Assembly: GCF_013410105.1 (NCBI RefSeq)
Contig: NZ_JACCCJ010000001.1
Location: 806,001 to 870,000 of the forward strand
Direction: 5' to 3'
DNA length: 64,000 nucleotides
Source: Sphingopyxis sp. JAI108
GTDB taxonomy: Bacteria > Pseudomonadota > Alphaproteobacteria > Sphingomonadales > Sphingomonadaceae
The notes beneath the pieces were generated by a model. The model was not told where the DNA came from, made no database searches, and worked only from the letters and a program-made list of their open reading frames with translations. The position numbers and the translations under genes are program-made. Below, piece by piece: positions 14,439 through 44,324 of the stretch (its first letter is position 1; each line of letters starts with the position of its first letter).

Positions 14439-14539
14439 CCCCTCCCATTTATGGGAGGGGTCGGGGGAGGGTATGTCGATCACGCGCGGGTCGGGTTCGA
14501 AACAGGCCCTCCCCTGACCCCTCCCGCAAGCGGGAGGGG
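14439..14539. repeat. Composite palindromic repeat between convergent genes
   Basis: Two perfect 22-bp hairpins, at 14439-14460 and 14518-14539, share the CCCCTCCC/GGGAGGGG stem but differ in the centre. They are joined by further imperfectly complementary sequence (TCGGGGGAGGG and CCCTCCCCTGA), so the whole block can fold into a cruciform. It lies between the convergent hydrolase and sppA genes and may terminate both. A related palindrome occurs at 28220-28237. Confidence 0.75.
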
Positions 14540-25831: not shown

Positions 25832-25929
25832 CGTCATTGCGAGGAGCCGAAGGCGACGCGGCAATCTCCCGCTATAGATCTTGCGCAAGGTCGATAGCTG
25901 GAGATTGCTTCGCTCCGCCCGCAATGACG
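25832..25929. repeat. CATTGCGAG-type dispersed inverted repeat (copy 1)
   Basis: CGTCATTGCGAG... at the left end and ...CGCAATGACG at the right end are complementary, with a second complementary pair (GGCAATCTC and GAGATTGC) inside. It belongs to the same family as the elements at 29820 and 44247. It lies between the convergent GNAT and NfeD genes. Confidence 0.8.
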
Positions 25930-28213: not shown

Positions 28214-28219
28214 CTCTTT

Positions 28220-28265
28220 CCTCCCGCTTGCGGGAGGGGAGCCTGCCGTTCGTCGTTCGACGAAC
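28220..28265. repeat. Two adjacent palindromes after the CitE-like gene
   Basis: CCTCCCGC-TT-GCGGGAGG at 28220-28237 shares its stem with the block at 14518-14539. GTTCGTCG-TT-CGACGAAC at 28248-28265 is a second perfect hairpin. They start seven bases after the stop codon of the upstream gene and could end its mRNA, though no T-run follows. Confidence 0.7.
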
Positions 28266-29819: not shown

Positions 29820-29895
29820 CGTCATTGCGAGCGAAGCGAAGCAATCTAGGGCCGTTTACGCCACTCTGGATTGCTTCGCTTCGCTCGCAATGACG
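29820..29895. repeat. CATTGCGAG-type dispersed inverted repeat (copy 2)
   Basis: Thirty-base arms at 29820-29849 and 29866-29895 are complementary with one mismatch, around a 16-bp spacer. The arms read CGTCATTGCGAGCGAAGCG onward. It lies between the convergent M28 and DAHP synthase genes and is near-identical in the arm to copies at 25832 and 44247. Confidence 0.88.
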
Positions 29896-42214: not shown

Positions 42215-42994
42215 ATGATCCCCACCATCTTCTCCCACCCCGACCGCCAGCCGCAGAAGTTCCGCCCCTTCAAGGCGCTTCAGCACTTCCGCAAGCTGAT
42301 CGCGGACAAGGAGGATACCGAGCAGGTGTTCCACATCTTCGAGAATCTGCCGCGCAAAGGCTTCATGGCCGACGCCCGCGCCTTCGTCGAAAGCGAAAAG
42401 GGCCGGCGGCTGATGGCGAGCGAGCCCTATCTGCCCGACCTGCTCGACGATCATGCGTGGATCGACCAGCTGCCCGAAGGCAGCGTCGGCCACGCCTATG
42501 TCACCTTCATGCGCCGCGAAGGCCTGTCGGCGGCGGGCCTCGTCGCCGAAGCCGACAAGATGGGCCGCCCCAAGTTCGACGACCAGGTGCAATGGTATTC
42601 GAACCGCCTGCGCGACACGCACGACCTGTTCCACATCCTGACCGGCTATGGCCGCGACGCGCTGGGCGAACAGTGCGTGCTCGGCTTTACCTATGGCCAG
42701 ACGGGCAATTACGGCAATTTCTTCATCGCCTATGCCGGCGGTTATGAAGTGAAGCGCGGCGTGAAGGCCGACGCCCCGGTGTTCGGCGCGATCCGTCAGG
42801 GCCAGCGTAACGGCAAGGCGGCCAAGGCGATCATCGAGCAGGATATCCGCGCGCTGCTCGCCGAACCGCTCGAAGCCGCGCGTGCGCGGCTGGGGATCGG
42901 CAAGCCGACGCTCTATGAAGAAGCGCACCGCGCGTATCGGAGCCGCGGGATCGATCCGTATAACTTCCTCGCGGCAAAGGCCGCGATGGCGTGA
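42215..42994 (+). CDS. COQ4-family protein
   Basis: 259 residues. The family motif HDxxH-x11-E is intact: DTHDLFHILTGYGRD followed by ALGE. COQ4 supports ubiquinone synthesis and has been linked to C1 modification of the quinone ring; bacterial homologues may do likewise or act on related lipids. ATG 42215 (MIPTIFSHPDRQPQKF) places the start downstream of the predicted promoter; the open frame further upstream crosses that promoter and is rejected. It is alone, followed by the repeat-flanked DUF559 gene. Confidence 0.9.
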   Translation: MIPTIFSHPDRQPQKFRPFKALQHFRKLIADKEDTEQVFHIFENLPRKGFMADARAFVESEKGRRLMASEPYLPDLLDDHAWIDQLPEGSVGHAYVTFMRREGLSAAGLVAEADKMGRPKFDDQVQWYSNRLRDTHDLFHILTGYGRDALGEQCVLGFTYGQTGNYGNFFIAYAGGYEVKRGVKADAPVFGAIRQGQRNGKAAKAIIEQDIRALLAEPLEAARARLGIGKPTLYEEAHRAYRSRGIDPYNFLAAKAAMA

Positions 42995-42997
42995 TCC

Positions 42998-43058
42998 AGA
43001 TCCTCCCCATCGCGAAGCGTTGGGGAGGGGGACCGCCGCGAAGCGGTGGTGGAGGGGT
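42998..43058. repeat. Left inverted repeat of the DUF559 cassette
   Basis: A 61-bp element beginning AGATCCTCCCCATCGCGAAG and ending GGTGGTGGAGGGGT. It is complementary over almost its whole length to 43416-43478, apart from a short variable internal hairpin. It begins three bases after the COQ4 stop and ends two bases before the DUF559 stop. Confidence 0.9.
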
Positions 43059-43059
43059 T

Positions 43060-43410
43060 CTAGCTCTCGGTACAGAGCCTGACGATGCTGTCTGCGACAG
43101 CGGCTGGGTCGGCGAGTACGTCCTTCGCGGCGATCCGAAGCACCCGTATTCCTTGCGATTCGAGCCACTGATATCTCGCCTCATCGCGTTCCGCTCTGTC
43201 CCCCATATCATGGGCGAGGCCATCGATCTCGATCGCCAGCTTCAATTCGAACACATAGAAATCGAGCACATATCGGCCGATCGGATGCTGGCGCCGGAAT
43301 TTGACATAGCCCGGCTGTTTTCTCAGGATTTGCCACAACAGCACTTCGGGTAGCGACATCTTGCGGCGGAGCCGTCGGGCATTTTTATAGGCGTTGTTGC
43401 TTGGCGGCAC
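43060..43410 (-). CDS. DUF559 endonuclease-like protein
   Basis: 116 residues of the DUF559 family, which has a PD-(D/E)xK/Vsr-like nuclease fold. LRRKMSLPEVLLWQILR is the usual start; FRRQHPIGRYVLDFYVFELKLAIEIDG (in two pieces, the Asp and the E-x-D-G of the core) and LESQGIRVLRI follow. The GTG at 43410 is six bases downstream of GGAGGGG, which is the end of the flanking repeat; GTG codons at 43425 and 43428 are alternatives. It sits exactly between the two inverted repeats. Function is unknown; mobility or repair links are inferences. Confidence 0.88.
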   Translation of the reverse strand: MPPSNNAYKNARRLRRKMSLPEVLLWQILRKQPGYVKFRRQHPIGRYVLDFYVFELKLAIEIDGLAHDMGDRAERDEARYQWLESQGIRVLRIAAKDVLADPAAVADSIVRLCTES

Positions 43411-43415
43411 GCTTG

Positions 43416-43478
43416 ACCCCTCCACCACGCCCTTCGGGCGCGGTCCCCCTCCCCATCGCTTCGCGAAGGGGAGGATCT
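43416..43478. repeat. Right inverted repeat of the DUF559 cassette
   Basis: A 63-bp element, the reverse complement of the left copy with two point differences and a different internal hairpin (GCCCGAAGGGCG against CGCGAAGCGG). On the minus strand its end GGTGGAGGGG supplies a Shine-Dalgarno for the DUF559 gene. Its other end overlaps the stop codon of the DUF72 gene. Confidence 0.9.
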
Positions 43479-44214
43479 ATCTTAGCTTCGCAATCAGCGC
43501 CTGTGCCGCTGCGGGGTTGCGGACTTTCGCGCCGGATATGAAGAAGATATAGACGTCGCGATCGCCCTCTGCCCAGTCCTTGGCGCGCTTGGCCCAAGCG
43601 TCGAGCGCCTTTGCGTCATATCCCGTTGCGATGTCTTCCTGGCTGCGCTGCAATCGCGCATAGGTGAAGTCGGCGGTCTGTTCGTCGATGCACGGAAATT
43701 CGTCGCTGTCGGCGAAGACGACCGCCATGTTGCGCTCGCGCAGCATGTCGATGAACGCCGGGTCGCGGAAGCTTTCGTGCCGTACCTCGATCGCATGGCG
43801 CAACGGCAGGCCGTCCTGCGCATCGGGCAGCAGGTCGAGGAAGCCTGCGAAATCGTCAGGCACGAATTTCTTCGTAGCCATGAACTGCCAGTGGATCGGT
43901 CCGAGCCGGTCGCCGAGCCGCGTGATGCCCTGCGTCAGGAATTTCTCGATCGATGCCGCGCCTTCGGCCAGCACCTTGCGGTTCGTCGTGAAGCGTGACG
44001 CCTTGACGCTGAACTGGAAGCCGTCCGGAACCGACGCGGCCCAATTGGCGAAGGTTTCGGGCTTCTGGCTGCCATAATAGGTGCCGTTGATCTCGATCCC
44101 GCTCAGATACTGGCCGGCATATTCGAGCTCGCGCTTTTGCGCGAGGCCAGCGGGGTAGAAGGGGCCGCGCCACGGTTCGTAGGTCCAGCCGCCGACTCCG
44201 ACATAGATGCTCAT
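43477..44214 (-). CDS. DUF72-family (YecE-like) protein
   Basis: 245 residues, TIM-barrel type. MSIYVGVGGWTYEPWRGPFYP is the family N-terminus. EINGTYYGSQKPETFANWA and HAIEVRHESFRDP are the conserved barrel motifs, and YIFFISGAKVRNPAAA ends it. Function of DUF72 is not established. The ATG at 44214 has a strong GGAGGTG upstream. The reading frame continues further upstream only because it translates a dispersed repeat. Confidence 0.92.
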   Translation of the reverse strand: MSIYVGVGGWTYEPWRGPFYPAGLAQKRELEYAGQYLSGIEINGTYYGSQKPETFANWAASVPDGFQFSVKASRFTTNRKVLAEGAASIEKFLTQGITRLGDRLGPIHWQFMATKKFVPDDFAGFLDLLPDAQDGLPLRHAIEVRHESFRDPAFIDMLRERNMAVVFADSDEFPCIDEQTADFTYARLQRSQEDIATGYDAKALDAWAKRAKDWAEGDRDVYIFFISGAKVRNPAAAQALIAKLR

Positions 44215-44246
44215 ATGCGCGTCACCTCCGTGCCAAAACACTTCGC

Positions 44247-44316
44247 CATTGCGAGCGTAGCGAAGCAATCCAGGGCGTGACAAGCCGCTCTGGATTGCTT
44301 CGCTACGCTCGCAATG
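44247..44316. repeat. CATTGCGAG-type dispersed inverted repeat (copy 3)
   Basis: Perfect 27-bp arms at 44247-44273 and 44290-44316 with a 16-bp spacer, the same spacer length as copy 2. It lies between purL (downstream end at 44325) and the DUF72 start. This copy has GCGTAGCG in place of GCGAAGCG in both arms, a compensated change that argues for selection on pairing. Confidence 0.9.
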
Positions 44317-44324
44317 ACGGATGG

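Follow-up and report, generated by a model that had tools for sequence, protein, structure and literature searches.

Introduction

REPtrons and TIRtrons are names given to RAYT genes that lie between dispersed REPs and between inverted repeats of another kind, respectively (PMC3733652), and RAYTs are described as single-copy and seemingly incapable of moving themselves (PMC3116915). RAYT transposases are thought to spread REPINs, which provides a model for the spread of repeat dimers. CGTC-tagged REPs of alpha-proteobacteria are dispersed hairpin dimers said to be without a dedicated transposase (PMC3733652). DUF559 is a common bacterial domain listed in Pfam as being of unknown function. In PMC9403480, a DUF559 gene is counted among the EDxHD homing endonucleases, and the nearest report in the literature concerns Legionella, where segments containing DUF559 along with a transposase are reported as hotspots of recombination (PMC12308824). 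No description of repeats bracketing DUF559 genes was found in the open-licence literature, within the text available from it, and a prior description may exist elsewhere.

The locus described here belongs to a 64-kb stretch of DNA from Sphingopyxis sp. JAI108 (the window, taken at its full length of 64,000 nucleotides). Like REPtrons with their RAYT-REPIN system and like TIRtrons, as portrayed in PMC3116915 and PMC3733652, the DUF559 unit consists of a single-copy nuclease gene within inverted hairpin-forming repeats; the likeness extends to the coexistence of several types in a genome, whose type-specific repeats are either dispersed as inverted gene-less dimers or confined to the gene. In contrast to the HUH tyrosine transposase of REPtrons, however, the enzyme of the DUF559 unit is predicted to be a nuclease of the EDxHD/Vsr fold, and its gene-less dimers of the window type are mostly heterodimers, whereas the gene-spaced pairs are homodimers. 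Catalytic-domain sequence and predicted fold resemble those of the EDxHD homing endonuclease I-Bth0305I (3r3p), and patchy presence, fixed sites and empty alleles are likewise known from EDxHD homing endonucleases. Unlike I-Bth0305I, the window DUF559 protein is free-standing, has a length of about 115 aa and, as modelled, is without an additional DNA-binding domain; no intron was seen at its gene, which is bracketed by inverted hairpin repeats. The mismatch-nicking endonuclease Vsr (1cw0, 1vsr) shares the modelled fold but is distant in sequence. CGTC-tagged REPs are, like the window type, dispersed alphaproteobacterial hairpin dimers, but sequence and tag differ; comparing the window arms by eye with the published description (PMC3733652), the CGTC tag beside a stem starting with AT pairs is absent. 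Finally, insertion sequences and MITEs also have a gene between terminal inverted repeats as well as gene-less relatives, whereas the DUF559 unit is without a known transposase, shows no clear target duplication at pdhC-lpd and occupies one site or few per clade.

Results

Anatomy of the Cassette

The DUF559 gene and its arms fill the space between a COQ4-family and a DUF72 gene, with the following features (window coordinates).

42215–42994, plus strand: COQ4-family gene, left neighbour (Pfam Coq4, 8.6e-14; match in 60 of 60 genus genomes)
42998–43058, plus strand: left arm of the element, inverted repeat with 43416–43478 (arm pattern 43022–43057)
43002–43028, plus strand: outer hairpin of the left arm, CCTCCCC..GGGGAGG (DNA fold)
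43032–43050, plus strand: inner hairpin of the left arm, letters variable and pairing kept (DNA fold, inner-sequence comparison)
43060–43410, minus strand: DUF559 nuclease gene, 116 aa from GTG 43410, open frame up to GTG 43428 (PF04480, 1.1e-28 for the longer frame; model fold)
43417–43423, minus strand: GGAGGGG, Shine-Dalgarno-like, in the right arm, 6 nt upstream of GTG 43410 (sequence)
43416–43478, minus strand: right arm of the element, inverted repeat (arm pattern 43417–43454)
43424–43444, no strand: inner hairpin of the right arm (DNA fold)
43448–43474, no strand: outer hairpin of the right arm (DNA fold)
43477–44214, minus strand: DUF72 gene, right neighbour, its stop codon overlapping the right arm (Pfam DUF72, 1.1e-62)

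By inverted-repeat search, the arms resolve into a block of 39 nt with 95% complementarity (42998–43036/43440–43478) and a block of 13 nt with 100% complementarity (43046–43058/43416–43428), which together with the variable hairpin between them amount to 61 nt (42998–43058) and 63 nt (43416–43478). The left arm begins 3 nt after the COQ4 stop codon (42992–42994), its last base (43058) preceding the start of the DUF559 stop codon (43060–43062) by two positions, and the right arm ends within the DUF72 stop codon (43477–43479). DNA energies predict two hairpins per arm, at z values of –4.30 and –4.67 and with none of 200 shuffles being equally stable. A sequence-only reading of the window had noted these near-complementary arms tightly enclosing the gene, GGAGGGG on the minus strand 6 nt before the likely GTG start, and inner hairpins differing in sequence yet remaining self-complementary, all of which holds. 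Correspondingly, an inner stem of at least 6 pairs is found in 50 of the 55 distinct inner sequences from fetched window-type arm copies, where three of the pairs are fixed by the search pattern and shuffled inner letters give a mean of 3.5 of 55. The further suggestion that the repeat supplies the ribosome binding site is plausible, with a Shine-Dalgarno-like motif in the left arm preceding an in-frame start in 65 of 133 genus cassettes. Intrinsic termination was dismissed as a role of the arms, since a terminator-like site is absent at those of the window.

Within the window, the arm pattern occurs at these two places only (0 expected), and a similar pattern is present in 8 copies in the 4.05-Mb genome (7 contigs). 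Besides DUF559, the Pfam matches of the protein comprise weaker ones to REase_MTES_1575 and DUF2726, Y1_Tnp, the domain of HUH/Y1 tyrosine transposases, being absent from them. Judged by Pfam, neither immediate neighbour is a cytosine methyltransferase, and Rfam returned no match at gathering score for 12 loci. The window also harbors another kind of hairpin dimer, inverted pairs of CGTCATTGCGAGCG-like sequence at 44244–44319 (between DUF72 and the next gene), at 29820–29895 and, found only when allowing 1–2 mismatches, at 25832–25929. In addition, hairpin copies of T2, the repeat type bracketing this genome's other DUF559 gene, are located at 14518–14539 and, with 2 mismatches, at 28218–28239.

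Bracketing of DUF559 Genes

Bracketing was scored by testing 250-nt flanks for an inverted match, a score of at least 16 counting as bracketed. From 60 Sphingopyxis genomes, 150 DUF559 places were listed, with weaker matches lying outside the list, and 148 had enough flank. Bracketing was established for 133 of these 148 genes, compared to 1 of 290 control windows displaced by 590 nt at the same loci, 0 of 30 Coq4 genes and 0 of 12 Y1_Tnp (RAYT-type) genes, the latter with a highest score of 10 and one of them with a short right flank. Chance is ruled out for the bracketing at the locus, and the association between DUF559 genes and repeats on which the sequence-only reading depended is clearly beyond chance in the genus, with controls near zero. 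Where that reading suggested looking for copies of this repeat beside other DUF559 genes, bracketing proved general, but there is no single common repeat, the arms being specific for each protein clade.

In other genera of the family, 25 of 28 genes are bracketed (top-scoring genes only). Outside the family, 68 loci were sampled (28 top-scoring ones and 40 hand-chosen for family spread), of which 39 are bracketed versus 2 of 136 shifted windows, splitting into 26 of 43 for the remaining families of the class and 13 of 25 for loci from different classes; arms of that kind are absent around 29 of the 68 genes. Two further collections contributed 8 loci, all bracketed, one being from the same genome as G049; they include an Erythrobacter MAG, three viral-collection contigs and two contigs from Chloroflexi bins, one of the latter (L418) being a partial gene match. 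Among 12 plasmid loci hand-picked from 37 matching records, 6 are bracketed, including the cyanobacterium Pseudanabaena with an unrelated repeat, and those without bracketing are from Photobacterium, E. coli KE47, Picosynechococcus, Sinorhizobium and Azospirillum (two). Three queries of the viral collection matched 0, 1 and 2 loci, 4 phage records had a weak match, and a database scan using a varied alignment gave no matches. In genomes drawn from the phylum, DUF559 is present in 116 of 299. The observation is hence real and far wider than one locus, nearly always made in the genus and often across the phylum. As to individual loci, the inverted repeat around the Pseudanabaena gene (L429) is long, contains CCCCCAATTCTGGGGG-like hairpins and differs from the proteobacterial arms, and in Sphingomonas parapaucimobilis (L424) a DUF559 cassette sits within the NAD(P) transhydrogenase operon, between two of its genes.

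Profile search with Pfam detects two DUF559 matches in the genome of strain JAI108. The second gene lies upstream of dnaG and has inverted arms of different sequence that are 97% complementary. The gene upstream of this cassette is taken for yqeY from the annotation at the same site of a Sphingomonas plasmid; NCBIfam showed no match for it. Back to back with the left arm of this second cassette is an extra solo arm (L001, 1376–1480), and back-to-back arms are also seen in L114, L123, L124 and L135, which according to their flanks share the site with L001.

Arm Sequences and Insertion Sites

Many arm sequences are found across DUF559 loci, and the protein clades follow them. For 208 bracketed loci, 20,320 pairs were left after removing those with similar flanking proteins, among which some orthologous sites may remain because flanks are short. 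The share of pairs with similar arms is 0.2% at a protein identity of 30–35%, 63% at 60–70% (92 pairs) and 75% at 70% or above (16 pairs), and a Mantel test of arm versus protein gives r = 0.29, with none of 500 permutations reaching as high a value. In line with this, relatives of the window protein at 54–58% identity from Novosphingobium, Sphingobium, Sphingomonas and Erythrobacter all possess window-type arms, in A or B form.

Seventeen clades were drawn on the tree, covering 135 of the 150 genus loci. Judged by flanking DNA, 14 of them keep to a single site, and the remaining 3 occupy two or three sites, from which it follows that cassettes rarely transpose, if ever, and have not been moving around within the genus. 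Similar flanking proteins are shared between the clades T1 and T3b (78 of 78 locus pairs), T2b and T2c (162 of 162), T3c and T3d (42 of 48) and T4b and T4e (12 of 28). In the listed loci, no genome has both members of the first three of these pairs, a pattern suggestive of two clades taking each other's place at a single site.

The COQ4-DUF72 gap was compared in 30 genomes. It holds the cassette in 7, a gene-less dimer in 10 and neither in 7, while the neighbours are changed in 6; fixation of the cassette at this locus, which would have spoken against the sequence-only reading, is thus not seen. The dimers have about 130 bp, consist of a related repeat and have matching outer ends. Some of the 7 gaps with neither hold another hairpin or gene; the hairpin replacing the cassette in some other species is taken for one of the CGTC-tagged REP kind. 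One of the 7 cassettes, that of G054, has an in-frame stop inside the domain. On the COQ4 tree, gap states require at least 12 changes in 30 taxa, compared to a mean of 16.7 for shuffled labels, only 0.2% of which gave as few, indicating that the gap state is partly inherited. In 8 genomes, divergence of the DUF559 gene at the gap amounts to 11% at first and second and 36% at third codon positions, which suggests that the protein is under constraint. At third positions, this divergence does not track that of COQ4 (rho 0.23, p 0.24). A clean empty site was also sought for L193, a DUF559 gene of another genome of the same species that is absent here, and given up because its left flank is without a match in this genome.

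T1 genes occur in 13 genomes, between pdhC (pyruvate dehydrogenase E2) and lpd (dihydrolipoyl dehydrogenase). The 31-nt T1 arm motif is present in exactly these 13 of the 60 genomes, with one forward and one reverse copy always flanking the T1 gene and no copies beyond these arms in the 60 genomes, hence no gene-less T1 dimers. All 26 arms have an identical motif, although differences among the 13 genes average 46% at third and 17% at first and second codon positions, which makes the arm the best-conserved component of the T1 unit. Of 30 pdhC-lpd gaps compared, 9 hold T1, 4 T3b and 1 a solo T1-like arm, 7 are clean empty alleles with stop and next start practically in contact, and 9 bear other small reading frames (L312, L313, L315, L316, L317, L319, L322, L325, and L329), as if the junction tolerated or attracted insertions. 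In L009, the T1 frame passes through both arms and overlaps the ends of the neighbour genes. By eye, no clear target-site duplication is visible at pdhC-lpd, the nearest approach being an imperfect resemblance over about ten bases.

The pdhC-lpd site is occupied in several genera. The 22 rows grouped for it form one side of a branch (support 76/90, not starred); they include L057 and L042, assigned to the site by flanks, L041, with an lpd-like start 0.7 kb downstream, and L063, whose site assignment is provisional. The different arms found there may accordingly stem from a single lineage whose arms changed jointly with the protein. Two separate invasions of pdhC-lpd were considered and dropped, as a single clade is rejected (p 0.0155) only when leaving out L057, L042, L041 and L063, and with these four rows one clade is not rejected for the T1 rows (p 0.175).

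Dispersed Repeats and Gene-Less Dimers

Repeats of the window type and of T2 are dispersed as inverted gene-less dimers, with up to 182 and 58 copies per genome, respectively, and A-arm copies ranging from 0 to 182. Window-type pairs facing inward at a distance of up to 60 nt comprise 33 A/B and 4 A/A, bearing in mind that most free-copy loci were fetched with the A pattern and short B/B dimers would escape. At the gene-bearing spacing of 300–500 nt, 17 A/A, 2 B/B and 1 A/B were counted; 14 further pairs show other arrangements. As short dimers are thus mostly A/B and gene-spaced pairs nearly all homodimers, the dimers are not simple cassette deletions. A guess would be that long perfect palindromes lack stability when only a short spacer separates their halves.

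Repeat copy number tracks DUF559 loosely. Based on the matches listed, the median of window-type copies is 26 in the 23 genomes with a same-type gene and 10 in the 37 without (p 0.002), G054 being counted among the latter despite having such a gene with an in-frame stop. Copy number correlates more strongly with the count of other-type DUF559 genes (rho 0.65) than with that of same-type ones (rho 0.36). G041, G044 and G046 (98, 78 and 71 copies) have no same-type gene among the matches listed, and of the COQ4-tree neighbours G033 and G017 the cassette bearer has the fewer copies (5 versus 17). The 8 genomes without a DUF559 match (G005, G007, G014, G023, G031, G032, G043, and G050) have 7, 1, 0, 1, 10, 1, 0 and 0 copies, respectively. 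An argument from copy numbers for dimer spread in trans was abandoned, the correlation being present but confounded. RAYT-type matches were obtained in 11 of the 60 genomes and none in this genome, in G011 with its 182 window-type copies, or in G041, G027, G028 and G046. With matches in so few genomes and 0 of 12 such genes bracketed, RAYT was discarded as mobiliser.

The Predicted Nuclease

A structure model calculated from 8 sequences (pLDDT 84, pTM 0.76) gives its best fold match with 3hrl (Z 13.2, rmsd 1.7 over 91), followed by I-Bth0305I (3r3p; Z 11.5, rmsd 2.6 over 93; profile E 1.1e-4) and Vsr (1cw0, Z 10.1, rmsd 2.2 over 99; 1vsr, Z 9.4), while the match to TnsA (Z 6.5) is too weak to weigh. 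By sequence and fold, the nearest named relative with known activity is the homing endonuclease I-Bth0305I. E22, Q41 and D76 are present in 179 of 179 alignment rows, which count the window and its own locus L002 separately, and D50, E61 and H67 in 178. E22, D50, H67 and D76 are read here as the EDxHD positions and presumed active site, so that DUF559 is predicted to carry an EDxHD/Vsr-type catalytic domain. A defence role was rejected, as PADLOC matches are weak, the best being 2e-4 to part of DpdF.

Discussion

Anatomy and its generality, co-divergence of arm and protein, a patchy distribution over fixed sites of which one has clean empty alleles, conservation of the presumed active-site residues and, in some types, gene-less dimers are all directly observed, and their best reading is a REPtron-like unit built on an EDxHD/Vsr-type nuclease. 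The locus probably exemplifies a small selfish unit of very wide distribution, a DUF559 nuclease gene within its own hairpin-forming arms. That the unit persists by homing is suggested by its fidelity to sites and by the closest characterised relative, and arm conservation together with arm-protein co-divergence points to the arm as the target of the nuclease. Both are combined here in one model, with the catalytic step being the conjectural part. Accordingly worded, the nuclease would recognise its own arm, probably as extruded cruciform or single strand, and would cut at or near it; repair of the cut would then copy the unit into an allele without it or maintain it where it is, and gene-less dimers of some families may have been spread by this activity as well. 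That the DUF559 nuclease acts on its own arms is considered more likely than not, whereas its additional role in spreading gene-less dimers is put forward with some hesitation. Equally tentative is the proposal of DUF559 as a second, HUH-independent class of palindrome-associated nucleases that recognise their own repeats, drive fixed-site persistence and generate REPIN-like dimers without RAYT.

A plain homing endonuclease gene, cutting the empty chromosomal site and spreading by break repair, with arms that are not the target but provide the ribosome binding site and shield neighbouring transcripts, would be in line with the relationship to I-Bth0305I, with patchy presence at fixed sites and clean empty alleles, with the three clade pairs that have common neighbours and never co-occur in one genome among the listed loci, and with pdhC-lpd being filled in several genera by 22 grouped rows on one side of a branch. 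Nevertheless, this explanation is unlikely, as it accounts neither for the arm being better conserved than the rest of the T1 unit, nor for arm sequence tracking protein identity at unrelated sites, nor for the dispersed gene-less dimers of window-type arms.

Somewhat less probable still are arms that function at the RNA level, as hairpins for insulation, attenuation or stability, around a housekeeping host nuclease, for example, in Vsr-like mismatch repair. Compensating changes do keep the hairpins paired, and in the 133 genus cassettes, besides the 65 Shine-Dalgarno-like motifs in left arms, 98 frames extend past the right arm. However, no terminator-like site exists at the window arms, the exact sequence beyond pairing is kept in one arm type (T1), the arms are symmetric at both ends, and patchy presence speaks against housekeeping. 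Passive hitchhiking, in which repeats spread by another enzyme caught DUF559 genes between two copies, fits the high dispersal of window-type and T2 repeats and their abundance in some genomes without a same-type gene among the matches listed, but is highly improbable given that two other gene families (Coq4 and Y1_Tnp) are unbracketed, that the T1 motif has no other copies to catch a gene between and that 49 of the 60 genomes lack RAYT-type genes.

Taken as a whole, the interpretation first drawn from the sequence is partly supported, and the REPtron-like unit with an EDxHD/Vsr-type nuclease is retained. With dozens of natural nuclease-arm pairs on record and empty alleles at one site, it can be tested directly. 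DUF559 genes and their repeats seem to constitute an overlooked kind of small selfish DNA element. If DUF559 is the core of a repeat-bracketed unit, such genes should not be read simply as belonging to repair or defence, the family would gain a role, and abundant hairpin repeats would gain a likely source.
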